NCBI GenBank assembly: GCA_963920705.1
Contig: OY987239.1
Location: forward strand, 806,001-870,000
Source: Odiellus spinosus
Taxonomy: Eukaryota; Arthropoda; Arachnida; Opiliones; Phalangiidae
DNA: 64,000 bases
Direction: 5' to 3'
Made by a program: the position numbers and the translations under genes. Under the pieces are notes generated by a model. That model was given only the letters and a program-made list of their open reading frames with translations. It ran no database searches and was not told where the DNA came from. Of this stretch, positions 24,440-64,000 are shown in pieces (position 1 is the first letter of the stretch; each line of letters starts with the position of its first letter).

Positions 24440-26030
24440 ATTAAAAGACTAGCCCTTTAAAAAGTGATTCAGTCAAATCTCTACATTTTTACCATTGCCC
24501 TTTAAACCCAATTAAAATTATTTTTTTCCTAATTTTAAATGTTAATAGCTGCGGCAGCCGCACTTGATTCAGTCAAATCTCTACATTTTTACCATTGCCC
24601 TTTAATCCCAATTAAAATTAATTTTTTCATTATTTTTGATGTTAATAACTGGGGCAGCCGCACTTGATTCAATCAAATCTCTACATTTTTACCATTGACC
24701 TTTAATCCCAATTAAAATTAATTTTTTCACAATTTTTGATGTTAACAGCTGCGGCAGCCGCACTTGATTCAGCCAGATCTCTACATTTTTACCATTGCCC
24801 TTTAATCCCAATTAAAATTATTTTTTTCATTATTTTTGATGTTAATAGCTGGGGCAGCCGCACTTGATTCAGTCAAATCTCTACATTTTTACCATTGCCC
24901 TTTAATCCCAATTAAAATAAATTTTTACATTATTTTTGATGATAATAGCTGTGGGCAGCCGCACTTGATTCAGTCAAATCTCTACATTTTTACCATTGCC
25001 CTTTAATCCCAATTAAAATTAATTTTTTCATAATTTTTTATGTTAATAGCTGTGGCAGCCGCACTTGATTCAGTCAAATCTCTACATTTTAACATTGCCC
25101 TTTAATCCCAATTAAAATTAATTTTTAAATTATTTTTGATGTTAATAGCTGGGGCAGCCGCACTTGATTCAGTCAGATCTCTACATTTGTACCATTGCCC
25201 TTTAAACCCAATTAAAATTAATTATTTCGTAATTTTTGATGTTAATAGCTGGGGCAGCCGCACTTGATTCAGTCAAATCTCTACATTTTTACCATTGCCC
25301 TTTAATCCCAATTAAAATTATTTTTTTCCTTATTTTTGATGTTAATAGCTGGGGTAGCCGCACTTGATTCAGTCAAATCTCTACATTTTTACCATTGCCC
25401 TTTAATCCCATTTAAAATTAATTTTTACATTTTTTTGATGTTAATAGCTGGGGCAGCCGCACTTGATTTAGTCAAATTTCTACATTTTTACCATTGCCCT
25501 TTAAACCTAATTAAACTAAATTTTTTTCATAATTTTTGATGTTAATAGCTGCGGCAGCCGCACTTGATTTAGTCAAATTTCTACATTTTTACCATTGCCC
25601 TTTAAACCCAATTAAAATTAATTTTTTCATAATTTTTGATGTTAATAGCTGGGGCAGCCTCACTTGATTCAGTCAGATCTCTACATTTTCCCCATTGCCC
25701 TTTAAACCCAATTAAAATTAATTTTTTCATCAATTTTGATGTTAATACCTCCGACAGCCGCAGCGAAATCATTATATTTTCCCCATTGCCCTTTAAACCA
25801 AATTTAAATTAAATTTTTCATCAATTTTGATGTTAATACCTCCGACAGCCGCAGCGAAATCTTTATATTTTCCCCATTGCCCTTTAAACCAAATTTAAAT
25901 AAATTTTTTCATCAATTTTGATGTTAATACCTCCGACAGCCGCAATGAAATCTTTATATTTTCCCCATTGCCCTTTAAACCAAATTCCAATTAATTTTTT
26001 CATTATTTTTGATGTTAATACCTTCCTTAT
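24440..26030. repeat. 100-bp satellite array, left copy
   Basis: About 16 units of roughly 100 bp. A typical unit contains GCAGCCGCACTTGATTCAGT, CTCTACATTTTTACCATTGC, CCCAATTAAAATTA and TTTTTGATGTTAATAGCTG. The last four units drift (CCTCCGACAGCCGCAGCGAA). The same satellite occurs inverted at 62,390-64,000. Short open stretches in it are repeat artefacts. Confidence 0.95.
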
Positions 26031-26945: not shown

Positions 26946-27470
26946 CCGAATACCGGTGAGATTTACAAAATGTCTTTGTAAATTGGACTTTGATGTAGAC
27001 AGTAAATTGATTAGTTTATAGAAATCGGCAAGAAATTGAAATTATGCTGGAGAATTTAAAGGGGCTTAGAAAGGTAATGCCACGGTGTATTTGAAAAACA
27101 TTGGACACAATAACAATGGGACATAATCTCATTAGCTCTTAATCTTCATGTACATAATCTCAACTACAACCAATATCGATAGTGAAAAATCTCAAACGGA
27201 CACTTTACTCGCCCGTCCCTATTGTAATATTTTAGGAAAGGTTAAGGTTGGGTTGCGTTTGTTAATCACTCGAACTAGCACATCTCTACAACGAGTTAAT
27301 ATCTCGAGCTATACCATATAATTATAACATTAATCCTTGGTGGTTAATCGACGTTTAAAATGATGCGCGTGACTTCAGTCTCGCGATATAGTAAAATAAT
27401 ATTTAATCGCCAAGCCTGATCAACTTCCGTTGTCGTCTTCGTCAGCGTAACTTCTTCGAAGAACCTTGGT
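26946..27470. other. Intergenic sequence, no feature recognised
   Basis: No gene or repeat identified apart from a short AGGTTAAGGTTGGGTTG run near 27,238. Confidence 0.4.
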
Positions 27471-27517
27471 TATATTGTCACGTGGTAGGCGGAACGCTAC
27501 AATTTTGGTTTTCCCCA
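27471..27517 (+). mobile_element. Decayed Helentron-like 3' end (K6)
   Basis: CACGTGGTAGGCGGAACGCT and ATTTTGGTTTTCCCCAATTT resemble the family 3' end at 54,085-54,126 (CACGTGGTTGTCGGGGAGGT ... ATTTTGGTTTCCCAACTTG). It ends about 520 bp upstream of the Helitron gene start. Substitutions are numerous, so it may be an old remnant. Confidence 0.45.
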
Positions 27518-28035
27518 ATTTGTTATATAAAAAAAAAATTTCTTTGTTTGTTTTACAGATTAAATTCATTTCATGATTTTTTAATAAATTGTTACTTATC
27601 TAAATTTAAATATTTTTTTTATTTCAAAATACACTAAGTTACGTTTCATTTTCATTCAATAAGTAAACGGTATCGTTTAAGAAATTTCTTTAATAAATAA
27701 ATTAAGCGGGTCAATTTATTAGTGTTTTATTGTCATTAATAACTGAATACACAAATATATTGAAGGACAGAAAATTTATTTCCTTTGCACGCGCTGGTAA
27801 GCGATATAACTTAAATTTAAGATAATTGTGGTTTCCCAGTTTTAACTGCCAATTACCAGTTTGCCTCTCATTCACTAGAATTAACTGAAAATATTAATAA
27901 TACTTAGGTAGTTTTCTCTACTTTGAAAGTTTCGCTAGTGTTGTCAAAAATGATACGATTATAACAATATATATCTTTTGGACAAGTGAATTTAATACCT
28001 CGTTTTAAAATTCAATTTACTCTTTTAAAGATAAT
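27518..28035. promoter_or_regulatory. Upstream region of the Helitron gene
   Basis: AT-rich, non-coding. A TATATAT stretch at 27,967-27,973 lies about 65 bp before the first ATG and could serve as a TATA box. There is no direct evidence of promoter function, and I did not find the 5' terminus of the element. Confidence 0.3.
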
Positions 28036-28941
28036 ATGGTGAAGATAAAGTACTGTGTTTATCCTGGGTGTCTAAACAGCACCCGCAAGAAGGATGCGGG
28101 TGTGAAGTATTTTCCATTTCCAAAGCCCGGAAGACAAGCCATAAAATGTGCAAAATGGCTGCTACTTTGCAAACAAACATGCCCGCCAAGTTCTGTAAAG
28201 GAACAATGGTATATCTGTTCAAACCATTTTTTGGGTGGCAAAAGTCCAAGTGAAGAACATCCAGATCCATTACCCGTGGCGATAAGCGCGGGCTCAATTT
28301 TTCATAATGATGAGACGTTTTCTAAGCCCGCCACTAATGCCAATATAACGTTGCGAAGGCGTGATGCTGAGGACGAAAATTCATTGAAAAGGTATCCTTG
28401 TTTTCAAGACGATGACATGGTCAAAAGGCTTTGTGTGCCTAATAGTATACATTTCAATGAATATGGCCCTATAAATAGCCACGATGTTAATATCATACAC
28501 CCGATTAGCCCAAATGCCTGTATGACAAATCCGGTCAGCCCAAATGGCTCTATGACAAAGCCGGTTAGCCTAATTGGCTGCTTGACAAATCCGGTCAGCC
28601 CAAATGGCTCTATGACAAAGCCGGTCAGCCTAATTGGCTGCTTGACAAATCCGGTCAGTCCCAATGGCTCTATGACAAAGCCGGTCAGCCTAATTGGCTG
28701 CTTGACAAATCCGGTCAGCCCAAATGGCTGCTTGACAAAGCTGGTCAGCCAAATTGGCTGCTTGACAAATCCGGTCGGCCTAAATGGCTGTTTGACAGAG
28801 CCGGTCAAATCAAATGGCTGTTTAACAAAGCCAGACAGCTTTATTGACTGTATGAAAAAGCCAGTCAGTTCAAACGGCTGCTTGACAAAACTGGTTAGTC
28901 CAGAGGGCTGCATGACGAGATCGGCTAGCCGTGCATTTTAA
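28036..28941 (+). CDS. Helitron protein N-terminus: THAP zinc finger and 20-residue repeats
   Basis: The first ATG gives a THAP-type C2CH zinc finger at residues 7-65: Cys7-x4-Cys12, Trp41, Cys61-x2-His64-Phe65. The 48-residue gap between Cys12 and Cys61 is within the family range. THAP domains bind DNA and are found in P-element transposases and many host and transposon proteins. From about residue 155 a 20-residue unit (KPVSLIGCLTNPVSPNGSMT type) repeats about seven times and becomes irregular near the end. The frame runs into a TAA just after CMTRSASRAF. The next part continues in the +1 frame, where CGTGCATTTTAAAACAAATC matches the following repeat, so a one-base indel near 28,925 (or an unseen small intron) separates them. 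Fusion to the Rep-helicase is inferred from adjacency, same strand and lack of any gap. Confidence 0.7.
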   Translation: MVKIKYCVYPGCLNSTRKKDAGVKYFPFPKPGRQAIKCAKWLLLCKQTCPPSSVKEQWYICSNHFLGGKSPSEEHPDPLPVAISAGSIFHNDETFSKPATNANITLRRRDAEDENSLKRYPCFQDDDMVKRLCVPNSIHFNEYGPINSHDVNIIHPISPNACMTNPVSPNGSMTKPVSLIGCLTNPVSPNGSMTKPVSLIGCLTNPVSPNGSMTKPVSLIGCLTNPVSPNGCLTKLVSQIGCLTNPVGLNGCLTEPVKSNGCLTKPDSFIDCMKKPVSSNGCLTKLVSPEGCMTRSASRAF

Positions 28942-30339
28942 AACAAATCAATCTCAAATAGCGAAAAAGAAAGCCGTGCATTATAAAACAAATCAATCGC
29001 AAATAACGAAAAAGAAAGCCGTGCATTATAAAACAAATCAATCGCAAATAGCGAAAAAGAAAGCCGTGCATTATAAAACAAATCAATCTAAAATTGCGAA
29101 AAAAAGAGCCGCGCACTATAAATCCAATCAATCTAAAATTGCGAAAAAAAGAGCCCAGCACTATAAATCCAATCAATCTAAAATTGCGAAAAAAAGAGCC
29201 GCGCACTATAAATCCAATCAATCTCAAATTGCGAAAAAAAGAGCCCAGCACTATAAATGCAATCAATCTAAAATTGCGAAAAAAAGAGCCGTGCACTACA
29301 AAACCAATCAATCTCAAGTTGCGAAAAAAAGAGCCCAGCACTATAAAACCAATAAATCTCAAATTGCGAAAAAAATTGCTCTTTACCGTGTATCTAATTA
29401 CGATTTATTTAAATGTTATCAAGCTCGATATGCTCGTTGCCACTCACAAAAGGAAAAAGACAGATTATACGCGTATAGAAAATCCAATCTTGAAAAATTT
29501 ATTAAAAATCGAGTAAAGTATGTCGAAAAGAATCGAGAATTGATTCGCGTTAGAGATAGCATTTCAAAAGCTAAATATTACAAGAGTAACGCCGCTTCTA
29601 TCCAATCTGCGAATTTAATTCGTTACTACAAAAAATACAGAGAGACACAAAAAAGACCGCCTAAAGCAAGACACCCACGACTCTGTACTAATAAATCGAG
29701 GCAAGAATTTGTTGCAAAGAAATTTGTTGAACATACTTTGGGAAATGTAGTTAATGGTACTGAGAGACTAGCCTCAAAAACTGTACAAACGCAGGTCGAA
29801 TCTTGGCTTTTGGCTGGCCAGGCCTTGAAAATGAAAACGAGATTATATGCCAAACTAAAAGCTCAATCCTCCGAATTTGGTAAACGATGCCAAAGTATTT
29901 TGAAAAAACTTCCCGACGGGCCACTAGACCCCGATAAGTTGTTGATAGGCTTTGGAGGCAGAAAAGTGCATTGCTCCAATTGCGAACCGTTCTTTTGGGA
30001 CATTGCCTACAACACATTGAGCAAAAACGAGAAAGCTCTGGAAGTAATGGACGATGGTGTAATTTATAATGTATTTAAAGTTCTACCTTCAAATGAACAA
30101 CAAAATGAAGAGGCCATTACTTTACCCGAAAATGATACGCCTCTATCCGAGAATGAGATGGATCCCGAGAAAGTCGAACCTAGCCAGCCATTGGTAAAAA
30201 ATCCAGGCGTATATTGGGAATGTGGATCTTATTGCAATATTCGGGCGAATTCACTTCAAAGATTAGCTGACATTATTCTGACGTTAGCGACATGCAAAGA
30301 AACTACAATGACAGAATTTTATTCAAATATTGATAACTG
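28931..30339 (+). CDS. Helitron protein, lysine-rich repeats and pre-Rep linker
   Basis: Starts with about ten copies of a 15-residue basic repeat (HYKTNQSQIAKKKAV and variants; 45-bp unit, 28,926-29,375), then a charged linker, a possible metal-binding CxxC (HCSNCEPFFWD), an acidic Glu/Pro stretch, and ends CGSYCNIRANSLQRLADIIL ... IDN. Basic repeats of this style precede the Rep domain in many invertebrate Helitron proteins. The frame is cut at 30,339 by a transposon; reading past it gives a few foreign residues (TVNEKS) and a stop at 30,361. The next native codons are at 33,908. Confidence 0.75.
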
Positions 30340-30479
30340 CACTGTTAATGAAAAAAGTTGAAGATTGAACCTTTTGGGGTTCAGAGGCGTGCAACCCATT
30401 CTGAACCTTCTAAAGTTCAAAAATGAGCCTATTTGACTAGGTTGAATTTTGAACCCTTAAAAAGGGTTCAAATTAGCAT

Positions 30480-30965
30480 CTTGAAAGGTTCAAATTAAGG
30501 ACTTGAGAGGTTCATAATTGCGCCTTGCGAGGTCCATATTTGGGCCTTGCGAGGTTCATATCTGGTCTTGCGAGGTTCATATTTGGGCCTTGCGAGGTTC
30601 ATATCTGGTCTTGCGAGGTTCATATTTGGGCCTTGCGAGGTCCATATTTGGGCCTTGCGAGGTTCATATCTGGTCTTGCGAGGTTCATATTTGGGCCTTG
30701 CGAGGTCCATATTTGGGCCTTGCGAGGTCCATATCTGGTCTTGCGAGGTTCATATTTGGGCCTTGCGAGGTCCATATTTGGGCCTTGCGAGGTCCATATC
30801 TGGTCTTGCGAGGTTCATATTTGGGCCTTGCGAGGTTCATATCTGGTCTTGCGAGGTTCATATTTGGGCCTTGCGAGGTCCATATTTGGGCCTTGCGAGG
30901 TTTGTATTTGGACCTCTCGAGGTTCGTAATAACGCCCAGTGAGGTTTGAAGTAGGACCTTGCTAG
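30480..30965. repeat. 21/22-bp subterminal tandem array
   Basis: About 20 units alternating GAGGTTCATATTTGGGCCTT-GC (22 bp) and GAGGTTCATATCTGGTCTT-GC (21 bp). The GAGGTTC core matches the scattered GAACC/GGTTC palindromes at the element's extreme left end (30,369-30,490). Overlapping open frames across it in three plus frames and on the minus strand are artefacts. Confidence 0.93.
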
Positions 30966-31187
30966 GTTAAATTTACTCATGAAGAGTTCAAGTAGATAAA
31001 ATAATAAAATATGCAAAATATCTCGTTCTCTTTCATTTTATTTAAAAGTTATGAAATTTATAACTTTTAAATTAAATAATGCACTCAATTTTTATATATT
31101 TTACCTATTTGAAATTCAAATTTGCAATACAATACTATTTAAAAAGAATACTAACAAAGGTAAAATTTTAAAATTTATTATGTGCTT

Positions 31188-33662
31188 CTATGAAAGAGAG
31201 TTCACAATTGTTTGAAATGACGCTGGTATGCGTTTTGGTACATCAATTTTTAGAACTACAATTTGCATGAACTCTAGAGTTTTTTTGATTGAAGTTGCGT
31301 ATTCTAAATTAAATACGAAGTAACTTGAGAAATTTACCGCAAGTGCATTCAGAACACTACTGCATTCCACGCGCTCATTTTCGATAGTAACATTTACTGG
31401 CTTTGAAAAATATGAGTCTGTCAAAACTCTGACCAAAGGAGTTGCTGAAGGATCACCCTAGGATTTAAAATTAAAAGTTTTGATTAATATTACGTTATTA
31501 AACGAAACTTATTGTTCTTAGTCTGTAAAATTCTGTACACGTACCTTTTCAGAAACCCAGTCGTCAATTTTTTCATTGAATATAAATGGCAAGCCAATTA
31601 TTGCAGCTGCAATCCTAACATCTAAATTCAACCAAAATTACATGGAATATAAATTATTAGGTGTAAGGAAATTTTAACTAGGTTCTTTTCCTTGACTAAA
31701 ATTTAAGTTAATCTATAGATATTATGGTCCGGGTATCCGCTAAGTGTTCACTATTGGGGCTTGCGGTGGGAAAAGATAATTGGATGGCTCGGTAGTTGTC
31801 TAAGAGTTTAATTTATATTTAAATAATGGAAACTATTTTTATACGTTGCCAAATCAAAAACTAACATTTAATTATCACACTGGAATTACAAACATTAACT
31901 AAAAACAAAACTAAACTAGTACGTAAGTAATCTGACCCTAATCTAAAGCATATACCCCTAAACAAAAATAACACAAAATACACTAACATAATAATAAATA
32001 CACTAACACAATAATAACTACACTAACACAAAAGAAATAAACTAACACAATATATAAAGACTTAACCCTTTAACAAAATATAACTTCGAATCGATATTTT
32101 TCAAATTGATACTTATATGGTCCCAGAGATGAGTTCATCCTGATGGTGGATCCGGTGTGCGCGCACAAACACAAAGACACGGTATAGAATTTAATCCCGA
32201 AGCTGGGAGATATTATCGCGAGCATTAATCGCGTAGATTTTAGATGGATAGATTATCCTGGACGTCGCCCTCGGTCGGTAACAGATTCATCCCCGTGGTT
32301 GTAGCGAGATGTTGACCAACGTCCGGTCCTCCTGAGCCTTCTCTTAGATTTTTCGGGTATGGTACGACGGCATGATAATACTTTAGTCCGCGTGGTCTTT
32401 TTCGCGCCAAACCCTCTCTTTAGAACATTTTCCTTTTTCATTTTTCATTTTGGAATATTATTCCGAGAATTGATTTCGCGAATATTGAAATATTTTTAAA
32501 GCTACCCCCTGCTACGTGTTTAACTTGGCAAAGTTATTTTATTTTTATTTCAGAAGGGAAAGAGAAGTTGGTTACTTATAGTAGGGGTAAGCGGGGAAAT
32601 ATCTACATGATGGGGTTGGTCAACGTGCTGAGCTCTAGCAACGCTGACCAACCTTCAATTGAATTTCGGGGTTTTTCTCACACCTGCCTTGACTAAGCGC
32701 CAGCGCTTAGAAACAGGCATAAGAAAAGGGGAAAACCTGTATTCTATTCTAATGTATGCTGCTAATATTATTTTAAGGGAACGAGAGATTTAAGATTTCT
32801 ATGAATTTAATAATTATAATGGGTTAATTTTGATTATACCTTAAATCACACGTTACATAGGGAATAGAATAGAAAGGTCAATATGACCACCCAATGAATT
32901 CTACATGTGTCTATTAGGAGTATTCAAAATAGAACAATCTTTCCAAATTGAAATGATAAATACCTTTAGTTTTTTCACTATTTAAGGCTTCACAAAATAT
33001 TTCCAACTTTTTGATGAAATGTTTTTTTTTGGCCTTTTTCCCAATTAAAGTCAAAATTTTCTCGTGATGAAGATCTGCAAACTTTATGACTATTTTCTCC
33101 ACAGAGCTGCTCAAATTTTTTCTGCGGTTCATTTCTTTAAACATCTGTCAGTATATTAATCAAATTAAGAATTCGCAATTACTTCTAAACATTTGCACTC
33201 TTACCTGTTTTTCACATGATAAAGTAGGAAAATTGGCAAAAATTTCCGAAATTTGAACTTTTTCGTCGTTCGTCAAGTTTTCTCTATAAACCAATGTTGC
33301 TGCCATCTTTGAGTCTATTAATATATCATCTGGTTCTCTTTTGTTCCATTCTTTTTGGAGCTGAGAAATGTGAGCTTTTACACTTTTTTCATCTTCACCC
33401 CCATAATCACCACGAAGGACCTTCAATAATGTCATTTTTAACATCATGGTGTAATACATTTCTAAAATATTCTCAAACCGTAAACATACCACACATCGTT
33501 TTTTCTTCGCCGGTAATTCTTTTCCAATTGGACTATCAGGATCATTTGGTTGACCTTTATTCAAACTTTTCCTTTTTGCACAGAAGCTCCGTGCTGTAAT
33601 TTTGCTTTCGCTACGTCCTCATCCCGAATAAGTGGAAATCTTTCGTGCTTGAACCTAACCAT
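31188..33662 (-). CDS. Spliced gene of unknown function inside the CACTG element
   Basis: Minus-strand gene. First ATG at 33,662 (MVRFKHERFPLIRDEDVAKA ...); then a one-base frame slip or small splice near 33,565, after which 33,564-33,206 reads NDPDSPIGKELPAKKKRC and on to LSCEKQ. A CAG|GTAAG donor joins in phase to ACAG|ATG at 33,144; that exon ends at 32,964. Further exons at 31,614-31,545 (IAAAIIGLPFIFNEKIDDW) and 31,457-31,188 join in phase; the last ends in stop (ASFQTIVNSLS). The step from 32,964 to 31,614 is not in phase, so at least one exon is missed. There are two Cys in CVVC and no catalytic motif I recognise. It may be the element's own transposition gene or a captured host gene. 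Confidence 0.55.
31640..32960. other. Intronic or nested non-coding sequence in the CACTG element
   Basis: It contains an A-rich stretch with CACTAACA(T/C)AATAATAA repeats (about 31,970-32,060), a GC-richer part around 32,130-32,440 and a palindrome-like GTTGGTCAACGTGCTGAGCT near 32,620. It may be a nested insertion; I could not define ends. Confidence 0.35.
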
Positions 33663-33905
33663 CTAAACCTTCATGGATAAGAACCTTCAAAGTTCTATAA
33701 ATGCACCCTTTTGAGCTTGAATGGTCCATAATTGAACCTTATTTTTGTGATTGAACCTTTATTTTTGGATTTAACCTTCATCGGTTCTTACTTGAACCAT
33801 ATTTTTTGATTGAACCTTCGATGATTCTTAATTGAACCTTATTTTTGTATTGAACCTTGGAAGGTTCTTAATTGGACCCCCATTGAACCTTTTTCATTAA
33901 CAGTG

Positions 33906-36744
33906 TGTGCGTTGCGGAACTTGAATCCGCCCGTAAATCCATTTAAAGAGTACCTGAAGGAAAACCCTCGTTTTAAAATGTATGTGCCATGGCGTTATCC
34001 TATAACTCGAGGACACAGCCTCGCTTGTTTAGAGAACAAGAAGTGTCTCAGTATATTAAGACTTCTCAGGGAATTGGCCCCACACTTCACAGCCTTAAGA
34101 ACATTTGTCAAAAGTGTTTACGTATTAAGAGCGCTCGCTTTAGGACTTGAATCCCTTACAAACGCCATTGAAAGGTCTGACATGAAAGAGGTAAAAAAAA
34201 ATTTGGATAGTCTAGAATGCCTGCTAGTAGACAAAAGAAATAAAAAGCAAAAAAACATTCAAACAAACGAGAAGAGTGGTATAGAAGTAGGGATTCGACC
34301 CATTCTTAATGAGGAAGAACTAAGAAAGACGTTCCAAAAACAGCTCACTCATTGTTTCAGAGAAATTAACGAATTCCATGACACCCCTTGTGACTGTTGT
34401 GAGAGACTGTGTCAATTAAAAAACCTAAAAACTCTCGAAAAACTGCTTTCTAAATGTGAATTATACAGCAACCAGGCGCTAAACACTTTACGAACGGCGT
34501 GGCAATTGCAACGCCCAGATTGTCCTGATTTCGATTATTACGCTAAAATTAACTTGTGTGACTGTTGCTTCAAAGCGTTGCTAGCTGAGAAGGTACCAAC
34601 CATATGCTTCTTGAATGGACTTGAAGTTGATCCGGTACCCAAAGAAATTTCCGATTTAAACATTTTTAAAAAAATGCTGGTTCAAAAAGGGAAAGCTTTC
34701 CAAACAGTCGTTCGATTAGGAACGCAGTTGAAAACTTTTAATCATACTGGTCTCACCAGAGCGGTTAAAGGAAAAGTCTTATACTTACCACTTCCCTTGC
34801 AGAGTAATACGGACATGATTCCGAAAGAATTGCCAAAAAATCACGAGTTACACATTTTAGCGAATGGCTTACCGACGCAAAACAAGTTGGTATGGCAGTC
34901 GTTGGTTCGCTTGGACCGAGTGCGCGACGCCTTGATTAAACTAAAAGAGATCAATCATTTATATTTCGATCTAGAGGTCGAGAAATATGACGATGATTAC
35001 ATTTGCGGAACCGTCAATAACGAGAAATTACGAATTTCTACCCAACCTGAAGCGTTGCTGAAAAAACTGACGAAAACGCAAGAAAAAGAAATTTACGACC
35101 ATTATTCGATTCACCCAATAAACGGGAAGAATCCGAAAGATATTCTCGAAACCTTTCAAATGAAACGAGTCGAGGGCAAACCTTTGAGCCTTTTCGGAAA
35201 AAACCTTGATTACCTTTGCTTTCCCGATTTATTTCCGACTGGAAAATTTGGACGTTACGCTGAACGGCCTTTTGGTGATTTGAGAGACTCTGACTTTAGA
35301 GTGTCACGAATCAGAAACAAAAACAGGAGGTTCTCTTTGAACGAACAGTACTTGTTTCACACCTTTTACGAGAGTGAAATCAAATCTATGACAAGCGCCA
35401 TCAATTACATGATGAGAATGTCCAATTCCAAACGAATGACAGTAAATTCTCTGATCGAGAAAGTCGACGCTAAAAATACGGAGCTTGAAACCGCGCTGTC
35501 CTCCTTCATGCGAAGTATGCGAGGCACGCAAGAATATTGGTTTCAACGTACTCTTGATTTAAATACCATGCGTCGGGAATTTGGTACGCCGCATTGGTTC
35601 GTGACCTTGTCCTGCGCAGAATACGATTGGGTCACTTTGCATGATCACTTAAAACAATATCAAAATTCGAGCCGGACCGTGGGTGAATTGTGTAGCAACG
35701 ACCCCACGGCAGTGAGCCTGCATTACCACAATCGATTTCGCTCAATTTTAAGAAACCTTATACTAACCAAAGATAATCCCGTTCTTGGTCCTGTCGACCA
35801 CTATTTCTGGCGCGTTGAGTACCAGGCGAGAGGGGCCCCGCACGTTCACATGGTGTTGTGGATTAAAGACGCCCCACAAATGGGTGTCGCCAAGAAGGAA
35901 GAAATATTGGCTTTCGTAGCTAAGTTCGCTTCTTGCTCGCTCCCCGATAAGATTGCCAGCCCGACTTTGTACGAATACGTGGACAAGTATCAAAGACACA
36001 AATGCAATCCGTCCTGTGAAAGAAAGGGAAAATGGGGTAAAAAATCCGCAACAAAGTGCCGCTTTAAATTCCCCAGAGTCGTCACGATGCATGCTAGATT
36101 ACACGATGTTCAGACCACAATAAAACAACACGTGGCTGGTAAAACCGGTCGTCTCTACGAACTTCCAAGAAAGGAAAATGAAATATTCATAAATGACTGC
36201 AATCCAGCTTTACTTTTGTCTATGCAAGCCAATGTGGACATTCAATTCATCGCTGACAAAGATAACGCGCTCGCTGCTTACGTTACCGGTTATATTTCCA
36301 AAAAGGAGAAGTCAAATGATGACGATCTTTGGAACGAATTGGCTGGTAAAGACCTACACAGTCGCTTGTGGGCCTTTGGCCTCAAGAGATTGACGCACAG
36401 AGAGTGCGGTGCGTACGAAATCGTGGACCGTATTCTAGGTCACCATTTGTACGGAAAATCCGAATCGATGCTTTACGTTAACACGTATAAGAAAGAAAAT
36501 CGAAAACGCTTGTTGAAACCATTCAAAGATTTGAAAGCTTTGCGAGATACTAACCCTGAAAGCGATGAGATTTTTGCTATACAAATGGTCGATGACATAT
36601 ATCCGAATAGACCGGATGTATTGGATAATGAATCTTTGTACGAATTTGCCAAGTTCTACGAGCGAAAGCCGCTCAAAGGCGACCCACCAGAAAACCGTTT
36701 GATTTTGAAAAATGGGAAGGGTATTCTAAAAAAAAAAAAAAAAA
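33906..36744 (+). CDS. Helitron protein, Rep (HUH nuclease) part
   Basis: After the inserted transposon the frame resumes as CALRNLNPPVNPFKEYL. It contains the Helitron-like N-terminal region and the rolling-circle replication initiator: FVTLSCAEYDW (about 35,600), the HUH metal-binding motif APHVHMVLW (35,836-35,862), a Cys/His cluster HKCNPSC ... KCRFKFPR (about 36,000-36,075) and the two catalytic tyrosines in AAYVTGYISK (36,274-36,303), spaced Y-x3-Y as in Helitrons. Rep nicks single-stranded DNA and covalently holds the 5' end during rolling-circle transposition. All key residues are intact. The frame is lost in a run of 17 A's (36,728-36,744), after which PKPFLIQFANHD continues in another frame. 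The apparent upstream start is a GTG inside the TG duplication, not a real initiation codon. Confidence 0.9.
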
Positions 36745-38118
36745 CCCAAGCCGTTTCTTATTCAGTTTGCGAATCATGATCCCGAAAAAAGCGACGAGGA
36801 GCGAGAAAATTACTCTCGCGCTTTGCTCATGCTTTTTCTACCTTGGCGAGACGAAAGTTCTCTTTTGGAAAGTCATTCGACATATACTGAAGCGTTTGAT
36901 AGCCACTTACCTAATTTGGAACGGATGAAGGCTTACCACGAAAATCTACAGTCAATTAGCGCAGCTCAGAAAAAACTTCAAAAGGTTCAAAAGAACCAAG
37001 TTGCTAAAGAGGCTCAAACGTCTAAAAGGGTAGTTTCAAATAATGACCAAGCTATTGACGATGTTCATAACGCTCTTCAATGCCAAGAAATTGATGAAAC
37101 TGAGTTGGACTGGGCTGAAATTGATGCAGCTTTAGGTAAAAAAAATATTGAGAGAGGGAGCGAATCACTAGAGCAACAAGTCGCTCTCTTGTATCCCGAT
37201 CAAGAGAAAATATTCAAAAAAGTTCAAAGCTATTTTGCCGAGCAAGATGTTTCGAAAAAACCCCTTTGCATGTTTGTTAGCGGGTTCGGCGGCACGGGAA
37301 AGAGTTTCCTTATACAAACCATAAAAAAGATGATGGTTACACGTTTTCCTCGTAGCGTGGCCCTGGTAGCGCCGACTGGATTAGCAGCTTATAATATAGG
37401 CGGACTTACTTTGCACAAACTGTTAACGATGCCCATTGAGCACGGAAAAACGGCAAAATACCGAAAACTGGGACCGGAGAATTTACTCATGCTGAAAAAA
37501 AATTTGGGTAACTTGAAATTACTTGTAATTGACGAAGTATCCATGGTCAGTTCTCTGCTCCTAGCCTACACTCATTTGAGACTCACTGAAATCACGGGTA
37601 ATGACGAGTTGTTCGGGGGAATTTCTATACTGGCATTCGGCGATCTTTTGCAATTGCAGCCAGTAAAAGGTGATCCTCCATTTTGCAAACTCAGTCATAT
37701 GGAAGCCAGCCTTAAAATTGGAGCAGTTGGAGGTGAAAATCTGTGGCAAAACTATTTCGAATATGACGAATTGACGATTAACAAACGGCAAAAGGATGAT
37801 ACGATCTTCGCCGAATTGCTTTCTCGAGTGAGAATCGGTGAAATGTGTGAAGCTGATGAGAAGTTGTTACGATCTAGAGTGATTAAAAATGCGGATAACG
37901 CCGAAATCGTTGCCGAGTACTTCTAAAAACTGGTGAAAGAAGAGCAAAGTCCTGTTTGCTTATTTGCTACTAACGAGTTGTGCAAGAAAATGAACTCTAT
38001 AATGTTGCAAAAGTGCGACAGTCCGATAATGGAGTTCTTGTGTGAAGACGAAATATCTGACGGTGGTAAAGGACTTAATAAAACAGCGAGAGCCTTGCTT
38101 AAAAAACTGGAAAAAAAA
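36745..38118 (+). CDS. Helitron protein, Pif1-like helicase part (one nonsense codon)
   Basis: Superfamily 1 helicase that would unwind donor DNA for Rep. It starts PKPFLIQFANHDPEKSD, then LPWRDE, typical of the Rep-helicase linker. Walker A is FGGTGKS (37,287-37,304), Walker B is VIDEVSM (about 37,528-37,548), and motif III-like AFGDLLQLQPVKGDPPF lies at about 37,633. A TAA at 37,924-37,926 replaces what looks like a Lys codon (YF-stop-KLVKEEQ). The frame is open again to an 8-A run (38,111-38,118), after which it shifts. Both frameshifts of the helicase region fall in A homopolymers, so long-read errors are possible for those, but not for the stop. Confidence 0.88.
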
Positions 38119-39631
38119 TGCATCCGATACCGCTGGTTTAGAAGCGAAACTGAGGCTCTGTGTCGGTGCCCGAGTCATGCTTCGAAGAAACCTATCATTA
38201 GAGGACGGATTGGTGAATGGTGCCATGGGCACTTTGAAAAACGTGCAAAAAGATGCTGTCGGCAAAGTGACGACATTGTTCGTTTTATTCGATAATAATG
38301 AGTTCGAACCATACGCGATAGAGAGAGTTAAAGCCAAATTTGAACTCATGAAAAACGTATACGTCAAACGATGTCGATTTCCCGTTACGCTAGCTTATGC
38401 TATCACTATTCACAAAAGTCAGGGAATGAGCTTGAAATGCGCCATTATAGATTTGGGACCATCATGTTTTCAAAGTGGCATGGCATACGTCGCATTGTCT
38501 AGAGTTACATCTCTAGAAGGTGTTCATCTTTTATGTTTCGAGCCAAATATAGTTTACGCAGCTCCGAAAGCTATTCGAGAGTACAATAGACTCAGAGCAA
38601 AGTACAGGAGCGACCTTCCTCAATTAAAAGTGATTGCGAAGAAACCAACCAAGTCCAAAATGACAAAGAAGGTTAGCGTAACTCACGCGGATGCACTAGA
38701 AGAAAGTAGCGGGAATCACGGAAAAGGGATCTCTAATCCAGTCGAGAGTATCGCGATTAAAGGTTTCGCGAATGAAGGGAACACATGTTACGCAAACTCA
38801 TCCCTACAGGCCCTTTTATGTATGCCTGAGTTTCGACAATATGTCCAAAATAAGGTTATTAATGCTAATCAGGCAACTATAGCTTTGCAAAATTTATTAA
38901 CTGAATTACTAAACCCGAATTCTAATCTGGTTGAATCCACGCAAAGTATAAGACTATGTCTAAACGAAAGGTTTTGGAACGGACAAGTACAAGAAGACGC
39001 TGCAGAATTTATCAATGATTTGCTTAATCGGCTTATTGCCGAAAGCGTCGGTTTCGAAAATTGTCTTTCTCACGAGATTGAAGAACAAAGAAGGTGCCCA
39101 AAATGCGAATTGCGTCATCCTGAAAGACAGACAACTTCAATACAGGTACAGAATACCTCGTATTTGGTTAACATCCCAAGCGATCAAGTCTCTAAAATGC
39201 ATGGAGTAGAATTCCGCGACCTGTTTGGTAAATGGCTGACTTTTGAGTCACGTTGCGTTCATTGTCAACATTATCCAATGAAATCTAGAAGCGTTTTGCA
39301 CTCGGTGAATAAGTATCTCCTGCTAAATTTTGCTAGGTTCGAATACGTGACGCCCACGGTACCAAACCAGCAGGGGAGCCTGGTCAAACTAAGGTATGCG
39401 ATAAGAACTTTCAACACTCAAAGAGTACGAATTGGAGAAATGACATTTAAAACAAAGGCTGTCATTATCCACGTTGGGGGGTCGACGACATCCGACCACT
39501 ACTATACAATGATAGAAAAAAAAAGTGGCGGGAATAATTGGATGGTTTGCAATGATAAAAAACTAGAATCCAGAAGAAATTTTTTTAAAAACCTGACAGA
39601 TGTATATCTCCTCTTACTTGAAAAAATTTAA
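38119..39631 (+). CDS. Helitron helicase C-terminus fused to ubiquitin-specific protease (USP) domain
   Basis: The first ~550 bp complete the helicase: VGARVMLRRNLSLEDGLVNG, then TLAYAITIHKSQGMSL (helicase motif V region) and MAYVALSRVTSLEGVHL (motif VI). After a ~45-residue linker, in the same unbroken frame, comes a peptidase C19 domain (38,750-39,631): Cys box GFANEGNTCYANSSLQALL, QEDAAEFINDLLNRL, zinc-ribbon pairs CPKC and CVHC, and the His box with TTSDHYYTMI followed by NWMVCNDKKL. Catalytic Cys, His and the downstream Asp/Asn are all present, so it could be an active deubiquitinase. Known Helentrons often carry an OTU-type cysteine protease; a USP is a different fold family in an analogous place. 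It ends TAA at 39,629. Confidence 0.88.
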
Positions 39632-39668
39632 AAATAAGTTCATTGAATTTTTGTTACACTCTCACAAA

Positions 39669-39674
39669 TTAATA
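39669..39674 (+). terminator. Likely polyadenylation signal of the Helitron gene
   Basis: AATAAA 38 bp after the stop codon, followed by T-rich sequence. Plausible by position only. Confidence 0.5.
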
Positions 39675-39689
39675 AAGTTGAATAAAACT

Positions 39690-40624
39690 AATGTCTTATG
39701 TTGAGACCAAATTTAAAGTGGGCATTGCATTGACACGAACCCAACATAATATTTTTTTTTGTTTATTTCGTATAAAACAACGGTACATAATGGACCAGAA
39801 GTGCTTACACGCATTTTTTCCGTCATACATCGTCGGAGTGGGTCAATTAATTTAAAAGGGAATATAAAACGGAAAAGGTACAATGAAGTTAATTAGTGTA
39901 TTACATATTTTAATAATCTTATACACATTGTTAAGTATTATTTGCTTAAAATTAAATTTATTCTGATTAAAAATATCAATATTATGGCCGTATTTGTTGT
40001 AATTTATCATAATCCTGCTCATTGGTTGACCTGAGGCTATTTCAGGTTTTAATAGTCTGTTTTTTTTATTCGAGTTTTACGGTTCGGTACTTTAAAATTT
40101 ATATTTTCAACTATTTCACCGCAGTTCATTGCACTCGTTATTATTTTATGGAAGAAGGAAATATCAAGTTTTATTAATATATCACTAATAGGATCAATTT
40201 TCAGTTTCTTAAGTATTAAATTTTATTTATGGCTTGATTTTGGGTAAAAATATTGTTGGTGAAATTGAACAAATTTTCTCTCAATTGGTTCTAGTTTTAG
40301 TTTTGATACATGCTACACATGACTACGTAAGCTCATTAGTCTCGAGACCCAACTCAACACGATAACTGAGATGATTGGGATGTATTAATCAAACTCATCA
40401 CAGGCGTCGATATGAAACTAAACATAATATAATTCAACTTCAGTTTATAGGCCCCATAATTTAGATAAACAATAATAATAAAGTTTGTCCAATATAAAAA
40501 TATTTATATTTATTAATTAATTTAAATTTCAAAAAATAAATTTATCATTTTAAGTACCTACCGCTAAATAAAATGGGTTAATTGTTTTTACTAGTGTTTA
40601 ATTTTCCCAAAAGCAAACACAAAT
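39690..40624. other. Non-coding sequence downstream of the Helitron gene
   Basis: AT-rich, no gene. The element's 3' terminus should lie here or nearby, but I found no convincing hairpin plus CTAG or GGTTTCCCAACTTG-type end. Confidence 0.4.
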
Positions 40625-42624
40625 TATACAAAAACGTTGTTTTGCTTCGCACTTCAAAAAAGTGCATATATAGGTAAGAATATCAAACCCGTGAAGGGAC
40701 AGAAATTAAAATTATCGTTGAAAGATATATGATAGCCACAGTCTAAGAAATTAGAAAGATATAGTTATTGAAATTAATATGAATAAAAATTAAACAAAAA
40801 AATGACCTATATATTCGGCCTATCGAAACTTTAAATTATGTAGAAGTCTTTCACAGCTATATTTTCCACAAAAGAAAATAGAGGTAAATAATGTAAATAA
40901 TGTAAACAATATAAAGATGCCAGTGCTTGCATTTACACACTGAAAACTGCATTTATCGCCATGTGAGTCTAGGAGAAGGGAAAATGTAAGAGTCGTCATA
41001 ACTTTGGTAGTGGTGCCAAGTGACAATAACGTGTTCGCAAGGATATTTTAGTGTAAGCAGCCGATCCAAAAGGTAACATTTGTTATGATATTATAATTCT
41101 TCACTCCAAGAACTAATAATTTGAAATACGCGAGATGCAACTATTTGGTATTATGCTATTCTACCGTTCCGAGCATGGTAGGCTTTCAACTCTAGAAAAA
41201 AAGTTACAATTTCGAAGGGTAAATTCTCCAATAGAATGACTTTTACATAAAGTTTCGATAGGCCGAATATATAGGTCATTTTTTTGTATAATTTTTATTC
41301 ATATTAATTTCAATAACTATATCTTTCTAATTTCTTAGACTGTGGCTATCATATATCTTTCAACGATAATTACCTCTCCGAGTGAACTTTAGTTCAAGGA
41401 GAGGTTCTGCCCTGATCGTGTGTGTGGGTGTGTGTGTGTCCGTCGTTCGCGGTGTTCGCAATTACGTCATCGCAAGAAAATTCTATTTTAGTTCACCACT
41501 CTTCTCATAGGTGGCGGCACAATTTCCAAATTCTGAAATTTCCTATTTAAATAAAACATCTCACAGGTGGTCTCCCACCCAGTCACTGTCCGCGCTCGCC
41601 GCTGCTCCGCTTTAGAGATAGCCATGCGAACGCTCTAACGACTTTGCTATAAGCACTTGAAAGACTCTTAGATAAAAACCTCTTAAATCTGGAACGGGTG
41701 CACTACGGAAGCCAGGCCGTGTTATAGTAGCGTCGCGTATAATGCTTTATAAGTATCTAATTAAATAAAAAATTTAAAAGCTTATTACTCGTAATTGACA
41801 TTATAAAATAAAATATTACTAGTCTTAAACGATCATAATATAATATTCAAATTTAACTATATTTATTAAATAAATTTGACGTTAACTTTTTGTCACTAGG
41901 TGACGTTAGATTAGTAGGAAGGACTACAGCAGTATAACGAAATAAAGGCGTACGGTTTTTTTAAAAACTTTAATTATGCTTGATTTAAATTCTATAATAA
42001 TTAGTTCTAGTCCTCTCTCAAAAAATCATATTTAAATTTAATTATATTTTGTAAATTAACTTTCTATCTGTAGGCATGGAATAATTAGTAGCTTATGCTG
42101 TAAGTGACACTAGTTTCCCTCGAACTCGGCTTAAAGCTAACCTTAATACCTTTCAGTCAAGGAAAGTCAAACTCATTTAGTCATTTCCTATAATTTGTTT
42201 AATCACATCATTCTCTTTAATTCAGTCTTAGGTTTAAATTAATTAATAATAAATAATCTAGAAATTCAGTTGTGTTTATTCTTGTAAAATCTATTTCAAC
42301 TACAATTTGTTTAATCATAGTTAATTTGATTCTATCATCATTACGTTTAATTTAGTCCTATAGCTTGAAAATAATTTAATTTATTGTTTTAATTTTGGTT
42401 AGAATAAGTTTAATTTAAGATAAACTTCAACTATTATGTGTCTGTAAAATAACAGAGGCTCGAAAATTAAGGTAGTGGTATGGCGCATCCGTGCTTGCAC
42501 GGAGCGTGGGGGTCTCTTCGTAGAATATTCGACTCTTTCGAGAGAGTGAAAATAAAACTAAACATGAAACTGAATGCGTCGCTCTCGGAACTCCCTATTT
42601 TTAATTGTCATTAGAATTTGACTA

Positions 42625-43117
42625 GTTATTTTAATACGATTTTTTCGTATCATTTATGTTTAATAAAATAGTATTAGTCTTCTTCTATCATAATATCATA
42701 TTTAAATTTTATTTATTTTGTAAATAAATATGATGCAAACGTTCTACCAACAGGTGACACTAGTTTCATCGTGTAAATAGTGTAGCGACAAAAGTAACCT
42801 TATAGCAAGAAGTGTGCCACTCCTCTTTCTTATTTTAACCCAAAAATTATAAAATAAATTTTTAACATCGTCTACCTGGTTTCATTAGTTTTCTTTTTTA
42901 GCATTGTTATTTTAATACGATTTTTTCGTATCAGTTATGCTTAATAAAATAGTATTAGTCTTCTGCTATCATAATATCATATTTAAATTTCATTTTATTT
43001 TGTAAATAAATGTGCTGTAACTTTCTACCAGCAGGTGACATAAGTTTCATCGTGTAGTGTATCGGCAAAAGTAACCTTATAGCAAGAAGTGTGCCACTCC
43101 TATTTCTTATTTTATAT
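42625..43117. repeat. ~210-bp direct duplication inside K2
   Basis: 42,625-42,838 and 42,910-43,117 share TTTTAATACGATTTTTTCGT, GCAAGAAGTGTGCCACTCCT and the sequence between them. Non-coding. Confidence 0.85.
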
Positions 43118-43147
43118 ATATTTTACCTATAAGGTAAGATTATACTT

Positions 43148-43342
43148 TGAGTGGGATCAGCTGTAACAGGCGTAATTCACCGCCTATCTACCGGAAACTA
43201 TTTTATAGTATATATCAGACCTTGACGATTTCCGGAAACCAAAAAAAGTTTTTTTGTTTTTTGTTTTTGTTTTTTTTTCTAGTTTTTTTACATGGGTTAG
43301 GTTGGGTTGGGTTAGGTTAAGTTAGGTTAGGTCCCACCAATG

Positions 43343-43380
<38 letters not shown>

Positions 43381-43531
43381 GTAAAAACCTACCAAATAAT
43401 TATTTATTTTTTATTTTTTATTTTTTTTGGTTTCCGGAAGTCGTCAAGGTCTGACATATACTATAAAAATAGTTTCTGGTAGATAGGAGGTGAATTACGC
43501 CTCTTACGGCTGATCCCACTCAAAGAATAAT
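43148..43531. mobile_element. Palindromic MITE inside K2
   Basis: Arms TTTGAGTGGGATCAGC and GCTGATCCCACTCAAA, with inner complementary stretches (GGCGTAATTCACC / GGTGAATTACGCC; TTTCCGGAAACC / GGTTTCCGGAA). The loop holds T-runs, TTAGG-type GGTTAGGTTGGGTTGGG and a 30-base A-run (43,351-43,379). Non-coding. Confidence 0.85.
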
Positions 43532-43728
43532 CATACTTATTATAAAATCAATTTTTAACATCGACTACCTGGTTTCATTAGTTTTCTTAATTACAATTAG
43601 GCTTGGGACGAGGAGAGGTAATATTTTGGTTTCCCAACTTGTTTTAATTTCTGTCCCTTCACGGGTTTGATATTCTTACCTATATATGCACTTTTTTGAA
43701 GTGCGAAGCAAAACAACGTTTTTGTATA

Positions 43729-44540
43729 TATTTAATTAGACACAAGTTTTTTATTCAACTTCATACATCAACGTTATCATTTTTTCCGTCTTTCTTTCCA
43801 ATGTTATCAAAGCTACTGTTATTCAGTCTTAGTATTCAACATAATAAAAGTATAATAAAGTATAATAGAACACCCTTGTAAATCTAACACATTTCTCTCT
43901 TTCTAATGCAAAATCCCAATACGACGCCGTCTTTCACGGTGTTTCAACCTTATCTAAAGCTTTTGTTATCTCAGTCTCAGTATTCATCCGAAATGTATAG
44001 AAAAATATAGAGTACCCCAATGAACCTAACATATTGATCTCTCTCGAATGCAAACTCTCAATGAAACGGCTCGTGGTCGGGAGACGAAGGAGACGAAGAT
44101 TCCTGTTATCAAGTCGAAAAAGTTTACCACCTCATAAGGGTAATCTCCATAGACGTTTCTGATGAAATTGTGAGAGACCTATAAATAAACCAGGCCGGCA
44201 ACGGCCCGGTTTTAATATATATATATATATCATTTATGGCTTATATGTTCGTCTACAAAGCCCAATGCCAACTGAAAAAAAGTAAAAAAAAAAAATCAAA
44301 TCAATTTTAGTAAAACGTCATTCAGAACGTTTACGTAAACACGTTATATTTCATTTTATTAAAGGAGAAAAGTTTAGAGAGGTGTGGCTTTCTACGTTAT
44401 AGATCTTTAAGTCGATAGACAAGCACGCTTTTTGGTACTGTAAAGGCGCGTTCAGACTATCCAAATTTTGCCGACAACATTTTTACACAGAGACGCAAAA
44501 ATTTGCTCAACTTTTAATGCAATGAATACTATTTGTTTTG
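43729..44540. other. AT-rich intergenic sequence
   Basis: No gene found. It includes a short TA dinucleotide run at 44,215-44,230. Confidence 0.4.
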
Positions 44541-61339: not shown

Positions 61340-64000
61340 AGAACCCGGTAGGGTTCTATGTTATGGGCCCATCATCATCTGTAATGCTATTTTGATTTCC
61401 TTAAAAAATTGGACCTTTAGCCAATCAGAACGCACCATTTCCCCATTGAAATAACATTAAAATCGACTCTTTCGAGGACATGTCCCTTGCATCGCAGAAC
61501 TAAAAGAGGAATTATTTGTTACGGTTAAAACCAATTTTAAGTGGTAGAGCAAGGTTCGAATGTGTGCCTTTTCCAAGTTTCATTTAAAAATATTAAGTCT
61601 AAGTATTTTAAAAATAATTCTGAAGTTGACCCTTTTTTTGGTACTTAGCTGGTTTCGCGCATGGCCAAATTCGTAATGTTATTCTATGGGATTTGGTTTT
61701 TTGAAAGTGGCTTACCTTTCAGGTTTATTTTCTAATACTTCCGGATATTTTTAAAACTTGGATTTTCCGTGTGGTATGAATTAAGATTCGAGCTTTATTT
61801 TAAGACTAATTTCATAATTTTACACCGATTAGTTGGCCCACAATCTATTTATGAAAACGGACGAAAAAGTAAGGCGGAGAAATAGATTCGCCAAAAACCT
61901 AAGCCTAATTTGACAAATTAGGCTTAGGTTTTATATGGCTTTTTAAAATCACGTGCATGAGGACTCGTGGAGGAGCGCGCTTGATTTGGAGGCTATGGGT
62001 ATTGAACTCTGACTTAATTTCTCCTTCTTCATATTTTTGCCGTTTATGAAATTAGTCTAAAACTAAAGCCCGTAAAATATCTGGAATCATTAGAAAATAA
62101 ATCTGAAAGGTAAGTCTCTTACAAAAAATCTAAATCCCATAGAATTACATTAATTTTCAATTTCTCCGCCTGTTTTTTTTTTTTTTTTTGCCGTTTTTAT
62201 AAATAGACTGTGGCCAAACTAATCGGTGTAAAATTATGAAATTAGTCTTGAAATAAAGTCCGAAAAATATCTGGAATCATTAGAAAATAAATCTGAAAGG
62301 TAAGTCTCGTACAAAAAATCTAAATCCCATAGAATAACATTAAGTTTCAATTTCTCCGCCTTAAAACTTAAAAGTACTCTCCTTTTTGAAAATGTGAAAG
62401 TCCGAACGACTTGGCATTTCGAACGGCAATAAGGAAGGTATTAACATCCAAAATAATGAAAAAAATAATTTAAATTTAGTTTAAAGGGTAATGGGAAAAA
62501 TATGAAGATTTCGCTGCGGTTGACGGAGGTATTAACATCAAAAATGATGAAAAAATAAATTTTAATTGGGATTAAAGGGCACTGGTAAAAATGTAGAGAT
62601 TTGACTGAATCAAGTGCAGCTGCCGCAGCTATTAACATCAAAAATTATGAAAAAATAAATTTTAATTGGGATTAAAGGGCACTGGTAAAAATGTAGAGAT
62701 TTGACTGGAATCAAGTGCGGCTGCCGGAGGTATTAACATCAAAAATTATGAAAAAATTAATTTTAATTGGGATTAAAGGGCACTGGTAAAAATGTAGAGA
62801 TTTGACTGAATCAAGTGTGGCTGCCGCAGCTATTAACATCAAAAATTATGAAAAAATTAATTTTAATTGGGATTAAAGGACACTGGTAAAAATGTAGAGA
62901 TTTGACTGGAATCAAGTGCGGCTGCCGGAGGTATTAACATCAAAAATTATTAAAAAATAAATTTTAATTGGGATTAAAGGGCACTGGTAAAAATTTAGAG
63001 ATTTGACTGGAATCAAGTGCGGCTGCCGGAGGTATTAACATCAAAAATTATGAAAAAATTAATTTTAATTGGGATTAAAGGGCACTGGTAAAAATGTAGA
63101 GATTTGACTGGAATCAAGTGCGGCTGCCGGAGGTATTAACATCAAAAATTATGAAAAAATTTATTTTAATTGGGATTAAAGGCACTGGTAAAAATGTAGA
63201 AATTTGACTGGAATCAAGTGCGGCTGCCCCAGCTATTAACATCAAAAATTATGAAAAAAATTAATTTTAATTGGGATTAAAGGGCACTGGTAAAAATGTA
63301 GAGATTTGACTGGAATCATGTGCGGCTGTCGGAGGTATTAACATATAAAATTATGAAAAAATTAATTTTAATTGGGATTAAAGGGCACTGCTAAAAATTT
63401 AGAGATTTGACTGGAATCAAGTGCGGCTGTCGGAGGTATTAACATCTAAAATTATGAAAAAATTAATTTTAATTGGGATTAAAGGGCACTGGTAAAAATG
63501 TAGAGATTTGACTGAATCAAGTGCGGCTGCCCCAGCTATTAACATCAAAAATAATGAAAAAATTAATTTTAATTGTGATTAAAGGGCAATGGTAAAAATG
63601 TAGAGATCTGACTGTTTCAAGTGCGGCTGCCGCAGCTATTAACATCAAAAATTATGAAAAAAATTAATTTTAATTGGGATTAAAGGGCACTGGTAAAAAT
63701 GTAGAGATTTGACTGGAATCATGTGCGGCTGTCGGAGGTATTAACATATAAAATTATGAAAAAATTAATTTTAATTGGGATTAAAGGGCACTGGTAAAAA
63801 TGTAGAGATTTGACTGAATCAAGTGCGGCTGCCCCAGCTATTAAAATCAAAAATTGTGAAAAAATTTATTTTAATTGGGATTAAAGGCACTGGTAAAAAT
63901 GTAGAAATTTGACTGGAATCAAGTGCGGCTGCCCCAGCTATTAACATCAAAAATTATGAAAAAAATTAATTTTAATTGGGATTAAAGGGCACTGGTAAAA
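61340..64000. mobile_element. Satellite-linked element M, right copy (inverted)
   Basis: Starts with the palindrome AGAACCCGGTAGGGTTCT and mirrors 24,440-26,945 in opposite orientation. It includes the AAACCTAAGCCTAATT hairpin at about 61,900 and, between 61,790 and 62,370, two near-identical direct blocks (ATCTGGAATCATTAGAAAAT). The satellite follows to the window edge, so its outer end is not visible. Confidence 0.85.
62390..64000. repeat. 100-bp satellite array, right copy
   Basis: About 16 units of ~100 bp (AATTGGGATTAAAGGGCACT, GGTAAAAATGTAGAGATTTG, AATCAAGTGCGGCTGCC), the complement of the array at 24,440-26,030. GGAGGTATTAACATC and CAGCTATTAACATC variants alternate. It runs off the window. 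Confidence 0.95.

Follow-up and report, generated by a model that had tools for sequence, protein, structure and literature searches.

Several Helitrons are already known to carry deubiquitinases. OTU domains, a class of cysteine deubiquitinase, have been described in Helitrons and Helentrons (PMC4067079, PMC2836005), and the VTD of zebrafish elements has been shown to be an active deubiquitinase in vitro (PMC9741609). The authors of the VTD study propose that deubiquitination benefits Helitrons and that enzymes of different classes can provide it; they also note Helitrons carrying either two VTDs or a VTD together with an OTU and, outside transposons, insect proteins whose VTD is inactive (PMC9741609). 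Helentrons end in an endonuclease (PMC4067079), as do the VTD-bearing elements (PMC9741609); elements of the Helitron2 type have a Rep/helicase protein without an endonuclease, palindromes near both ends and asymmetric inverted repeats (PMC4067079). Ubiquitin-pathway domains have been noted in several transposases, including a peptidase C19 domain in an IS5-like transposase of Trichomonas vaginalis (PMC2836005). Here we describe a peptidase C19 domain (ubiquitin-specific protease, USP) at the C-terminus of a Helitron2-like transposon of Odiellus spinosus, found in a window of 64,000 nucleotides (GCA_963920705.1, contig OY987239.1, positions 806,001 to 870,000 of the forward strand) to which all coordinates below refer. 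The USP class in Helitrons, and the tandems of a dead and an active USP found among relatives, appear to be new: no report of either was found in open-access PMC full text, judged by titles and abstract starts, with Repbase Reports, bioRxiv and most subscription literature lying outside that scope.

Within the window, the end of a helicase and a complete USP share one stop-to-stop frame of 533 amino acids on the forward strand (38030-39631). A Pfam scan of this frame returned Pif1_2B at residues 40-68 (E 1e-6), UvrD_C_2 at residues 121-158 (E 4e-4, under the family cut-off) and UCH (PF00443) at residues 245-516 (E 1.7e-23; score 84 bits, cut-off 23.9), the last spanning profile positions 2-239 of 254 and so representing a full C19 domain. 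The C-terminal part of the helicase (38111-38605), with the motifs ITIHKSQGMSL, VALSRVTSLEG and EYNRLR, is followed by a linker that evolves fast (38606-38749) and then by the USP domain (38750-39628), which features a Cys box, QEDAAEF, two CxxC zinc pairs and a His box. Counted along the sequence, its catalytic residues are Cys 253 (38786-38788), His 490 (39497-39499) and Asp 509 (39554-39556). Among solved structures, the closest in sequence are PIF1 to the helicase part, with Helraiser also among the matches, and USP46, USP12, USP1 and USP36 to the protease part. An earlier, sequence-only reading of the window had reported that a helicase runs without a stop into a domain with C19 motifs, which the frame and the PF00443 match bear out. 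Its start at 38119 lies one base out of frame, where stops occur, and the correct reading is in the frame of 38030; the helicase end that it placed in this stretch is helicase-like from about 38111 onward, where a frameshift puts the upstream residues out of frame. In most aligned copies, residues 1 to about 26-29 of the 533-residue frame match another frame.

A search of this 443-Mb genome with the 533-residue protein gave at least 85 matches (the total is a lower bound) on many contigs. By the match table, 22 of the 85 are free of stops from query residue 26 or earlier to residue 502 or later, from helicase through USP. The longest open frames around the matches encode 2983 (copy C259), 2655 (C11) and 2335 (C33) amino acids. 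Pfam domains of a 2613-residue piece of the C259 frame follow the order DUF6570, Helitron_like_N, REP_ORF2-G2P, PIF1, Pif1_2B and UCH, and the adjoining 368-residue piece, near the start of the frame, holds a THAP domain. The element encodes one long protein composed of THAP, Rep, Pif1 helicase and USP. The protein of C33, with 43% identity across the query, shows the C259 domain order with no THAP match in its 2335-residue frame. In both, PF14214 and PF05970 lie in a single frame, combining a Helitron Rep with a Pif1-like helicase; the sequences, as read, contain an HUH motif (PHVHMVLW-type), two tyrosines and a GTGKS motif. The sequence-only reading had held that copies without the USP would point to a chance insertion, and had proposed a search for uninterrupted Rep-helicase-USP frames. 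The USP stays in frame in further copies: with Rep and helicase in C259 and C33, with the helicase in the 22 matches open through the USP, and in long Rep-helicase-USP proteins of named insects.

The ends of the element were located by aligning copies. Identity of at least 98.9% between C259, C11 and C18 ends sharply about 4.3 kb past the USP stop codon, and upstream C259 and C11 are 99.6% identical to a common start. The 3' end is thus common to three copies and the 5' end to two, with flanks that differ, as in dispersed copies; such near-identity in different surroundings suggests that the family transposed recently. From its end coordinates the C259 element spans about 20.0 kb, and the USP lies inside it, about 4.3 kb from the 3' end. 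The 5' end features a perfect 24-nt palindrome (z -4.1), the 3' end a hairpin (z -2.2, with 6 of 200 shuffles as good), and the two ends carry an asymmetric 10-bp inverted repeat, ATTTATAGGT / ACCTATAAAT. Pfam detected no endonuclease family in the C259 frame, whose protein ends with the USP, and no coding-strand frame of at least 90 amino acids was found from the USP to the 3' end, barring any that spans the boundary of the two stretches searched. With palindromes near both ends, asymmetric inverted repeats and no endonuclease found, the element fits the description of Helitron2, from which it differs by its N-terminal THAP, its C-terminal USP and its length. A Helentron with endonuclease is rejected, none having been found in these scans. 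The sequence-only reading had cast the USP as a second recruitment of a deubiquitinase, unrelated in fold to OTU; the cysteine deubiquitinases are all described as papain-like, though of different classes, and with VTD already published in Helitrons the USP is at least the third class (PMC9741609). The domain resembles the VTD in being a transposon-borne deubiquitinase and, in its position C-terminal to the helicase, the OTU of the relatives that we scanned, but it is of another protease class. The T. vaginalis protein likewise joins a USP-type domain to a transposase, but an unrelated one, and a single protein is mentioned.

The USP domain of C259, 88% identical to that of the window, was modeled with confidence as a USP fold. 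By fold its nearest solved structures include USP12, USP46 and USP1, although many USPs score alike, and identity of the Helitron USP to these three cellular enzymes is about 20%. Cellular USPs (USP12, USP46, USP1, USP36 and USP2) share the fold, the triad and the zinc CxxC pairs with the transposon domain, and differ from it in this low identity and in their placement on a tree: three host USPs whose domain is complete within one frame cluster together, apart from the Helitron USPs (support 91; three rows in a quick tree with many weak branches). One of these, L041, is nearest to USP2, and L042 groups with it. A separate host gene as the source of the window USP, which the sequence-only reading had left as a possible refutation, is rejected, given the 2983-residue frame shared with Rep and helicase and the position inside the 3' end; this holds for genomic sequence rather than for transcripts. 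Beyond the list obtained with the Helitron query, further PF00443 matches were noted at G000:C18:4793482-4794255, C18:4890721-4891494, C8:5420707-5421294 and on C4 near 3.2-3.3 Mb, several in long open frames of up to 706 amino acids.

Conservation of the active site is extensive. The catalytic Cys is kept in all 35 loci fetched from this genome, and the His, the aromatic Tyr after it and the Asp in all 33 loci that cover them. Between subfamilies, the ratio of non-synonymous to synonymous substitution rates (dN/dS) of the USP is 0.11-0.15, and the linker gives 0.54-0.93 in those listed unsaturated pairs whose USP gives 0.11-0.21. The USP is under purifying selection in the family, a check that the sequence-only reading had proposed. 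The window USP itself differs from that of its relative L004 by 13 non-synonymous and 2 synonymous changes (dN/dS 1.78), a ratio that would be expected once selection on a copy has ceased. An aromatic residue after the catalytic His is tied to substrates ending in Gly-Gly (PMC7391069); from this residue and the intact triad we infer removal of ubiquitin, and there is good support for predicting that the USP is an active deubiquitinase.

To place the family among other animals, we collected 240 relatives, the best 120 of 1628 and the best 120 of 405 hits; as the best hits of a USP-bearing query, they give no frequency. A profile search, seeded with five USPs of this genome and eleven database USPs that are themselves among the proteins counted, identified 48 of the 240 (50 of 243 including two of this genome) as having a USP behind the helicase, some of them partial or dead. 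Hosts of these proteins include ants, wasps, a whitefly, a psyllid, an aphid and a sponge, with source names including Cardiocondyla obscurior, Linepithema humile, Cyamophila willieti and Bemisia tabaci. The USP is incomplete in the Nasonia vitripennis and Uroleucon formosanum proteins and has lost its Cys in that of Trichogramma kaykai; the protein of the sponge Dysidea avara (P0126) comprises a helicase and two USPs, with no Rep match. Many other relatives possess an OTU in the C-terminal place (4 of 4 scanned, e.g. P0032, residues 601-724 of 732), and in the ctenophore protein P0227 this place is held by a Ulp1/C48 protease. In the Odiellus genome OTU was found at three loci only, with frames of 333, 111 and 322 amino acids, one of which (L063) is presumably the host YOD1; no OTU match was found in the window frames scanned or in the C259 and C33 frames, where a USP occupies the place after the helicase. 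A USP-only search with P0006 matched P0006 alone. A C48 protease was also seen in front of Rep in P0223, and the Microplitis demolitor Helitron protein P0194 has, behind a USP split by an insertion, a stretch after residue 2181 that looks by eye like a hAT-type transposase.

Phylogenetic analysis of the helicase indicates that the protease class has not been stable. In a careful tree of 70 rows, built without P0194 and rows of 250 residues or fewer and including only 24 OTU proteins, OTU-only elements fall into two separate clades, and elements with both a USP and an OTU occupy a third position (100/96), which starred branches put inside the USP elements; OTU was therefore acquired, or swapped with USP, on more than one occasion. 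A second tree, from 157 columns of a shorter part of the helicase (70 rows), requires two changes for the USP rows. Forcing these rows into one clade does not give the best tree and is not rejected (approximately unbiased test, p 0.108). The USP tree, a quick tree with many weak branches, repeats by eye many groupings of the helicase tree.

Nine of the 50 USP-bearing proteins feature a second protease after the first USP. This is a further USP in four (P0126, P0167, P0171 and P0203) and an OTU in five (P0131, P0199, P0215, P0220 and P0224), the OTU being called by its GDGNC motif, with Pfam support in P0131 and P0199, precomputed Pfam support in P0215 and P0224, and none in P0220. The Cys has been lost from the first USP in eight of the nine tandems, six of which have lost the His too, and is kept in the terminal protease of all nine, that of P0171 being cut off after the Cys. 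By comparison, 35 of the 40 single USPs with a Cys column keep the residue (Fisher p 2.3e-5 against tandem first USPs, uncorrected for kinship; P0212, lacking this column, stands outside the Cys counts). The two USPs of each element in the P0167/P0171/P0203 clade, a whitefly lineage, group together, which suggests that the tandem arose by duplication. In the clade of P0126 and the USP-OTU elements the second protease was acquired; the second USP of P0126 groups with a psyllid element (support 87).

On these data, we consider it probable that the USP serves a Helitron2-like rolling-circle transposon as its C-terminal deubiquitinase and acts at the transposition complex. The USP might work in cis, stripping ubiquitin from the Rep-helicase protein (RepHel) and from proteins bound at the rolling-circle complex or nick, such that RepHel and its partners would not be marked for the proteasome while Rep is on DNA; through fusion, every transposase would be sure of having one active deubiquitinase. 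A protective role of this kind, raised by the sequence-only reading, is plausible. The first USP is usually dead in two-module elements, which suggests that a single active deubiquitinase suffices for the element, whatever its class. A broader proposal can be made only tentatively: a lineage of Helitrons may need exactly one active ubiquitin isopeptidase at the transposase C-terminus, a role in which USP, OTU and perhaps Ulp1/C48 (VTD in published Helentrons) would interchange. Once an element has gained a second protease, through duplication within itself in the whitefly lineage or through acquisition in the sponge and USP-OTU lineage, the older USP would lose its active site and be kept as a pseudo-deubiquitinase, perhaps one that reads ubiquitin and so positions its active partner.

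Several observations weigh against these proposals. P0171 is an exception to the tandem pattern, its first USP having kept the Cys, and five of the 40 single USPs lack it (P0116, P0117, P0133, P0191 and P0194), so that an active USP is absent from some elements. The loss is common to the sister elements P0133 and P0191. The USP of P0110, labeled by eye, outside the 50 found by profile and kept in the shorter-stretch tree, also looked Cys-less. The tandem pattern derives from two clades only, P0126 with the five USP-OTU elements and P0167/P0171/P0203, and tree-aware pairing leaves one or two independent pairs, too few for a test. Action in cis is a hypothesis, and deubiquitinase activity is itself a prediction.

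Action in trans is a less likely explanation, under which the USP would edit ubiquitin on host fork, repair or silencing proteins (e.g. PCNA, FANCD2 or histones) to favor transposition, and RepHel would not be the target. Fusion would carry the USP to the fork, and USP12, USP46 and USP1 are among the nearest solved structures by sequence and by fold, with one USP1 entry bound, by its title, to FANCD2-linked ubiquitin; no substrate-binding feature was identified, however, and the distance to these enzymes and the similar scores of many USPs blunt the resemblance. It is improbable that the USP is instead a processing protease that cuts RepHel as a polyprotein, as has been suggested for the OTU of Helentrons acting on Rep, helicase and endonuclease (PMC4067079). 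The domain does sit at the end of a 2983-residue protein, but the fast linker offers no apparent conserved cleavage site, and the invariant aromatic residue after the His is the one tied to Gly-Gly-ended substrates (PMC7391069). A purely non-catalytic, ubiquitin-binding scaffold is very improbable for the window family, which keeps its Cys as do most single-USP proteins, even though the dead USPs are retained in tandem elements with intact zinc cysteines. In the USP-OTU clade the dead domains are 50-55% identical where the helicase is 72-77%, and 36-38% where it is 65-66%, about as similar to one another as the one live pair compared (55% where the helicase is 72%). Least credible is a functionless passenger captured from a host gene, although capture of gene fragments by Helitrons is well known (PMC6431247); this and chance fusion are, in our judgment, rejected by the same place and frame of the USP in own-genome subfamilies about 43% identical, its occurrence in several insects and beside a helicase in the sponge protein, its purifying selection, and the groupings common to the two trees.

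The copy in the window is a decayed insertion, with its Rep, helicase and USP frames broken by a stop and a frameshift and with a further element inserted. On the forward strand, the 5' coding part contains a THAP DNA-binding domain (28009-28938, PF05485 E 1.4e-9), here in another frame than the parts that follow; L032 can be aligned with the window over 27466-28916, and L035 over 27466-28832. No report of a Helitron with THAP was recognized among 20 of 33 matching papers in open-access PMC, judged by titles and abstract starts. Coding minisatellites lie between THAP and Rep (28507-29375, forward strand), with 30-bp units at 28507-28910 and 45-bp units at 28927-29375, and the C259 copy shows SQDGCLTKPV-type repeats. 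The inserted element (30340-33905, 3.57 kb, no strand assigned) has no counterpart in C259 and C11, as seen from the alignment gap and junctions, and is bounded by 23-nt inverted arms, 91% complementary, beginning CACTGTTAATG; inner tandem repeats of 43-108 bp were seen, and its 152-residue frame has no Pfam match. The Rep part follows in a forward 984-residue frame (33825-36779) with DUF6570 (PF20209 E 3.1e-13) and the HUH endonuclease domain Helitron_like_N (PF14214 E 2e-29). The N-terminal part of the Pif1 helicase (36730-37926, forward, PF05970 E 5.8e-27) ends at an in-frame stop, and frames and copy alignment show its continuation in the same frame (37927-38110) up to the frameshift.

Past the USP, a forward-strand 3' noncoding part with further insertions was delimited by copy alignment (39632-43728), of which 43644-43728 matches the C259 3' terminus at 97.6%. 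Neither the C259 5' palindrome nor an own 5' end of this copy was found in the window. Ends of related elements occur in both orientations at 40599-44217, with a 5' end at 44217 (reverse strand) and 3' ends at 40625 (reverse) and 43728 (forward), probably marking nested relatives. Arrays of a satellite of about 100 bp were also noted at 24465-26020 and 62515-64000, with consensus units that look alike by eye, in opposite orientation. TTAGG-like repeats were seen as well, in keeping with an arthropod host but with no narrower assignment.

A further deubiquitinase class in the same place, together with selection, class exchange and dead-plus-active tandems, yields the direct prediction of one active deubiquitinase per transposase, which can be assayed with separate domains, and enzymologists gain naturally occurring pairs of active and inactive USPs to work with. 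These data bear on why transposons carry deubiquitinases, and on whether OTU and VTD catalysis matters to the element. Overall, they suggest that such transposons depend on control of the ubiquitin-tagging system of their hosts.
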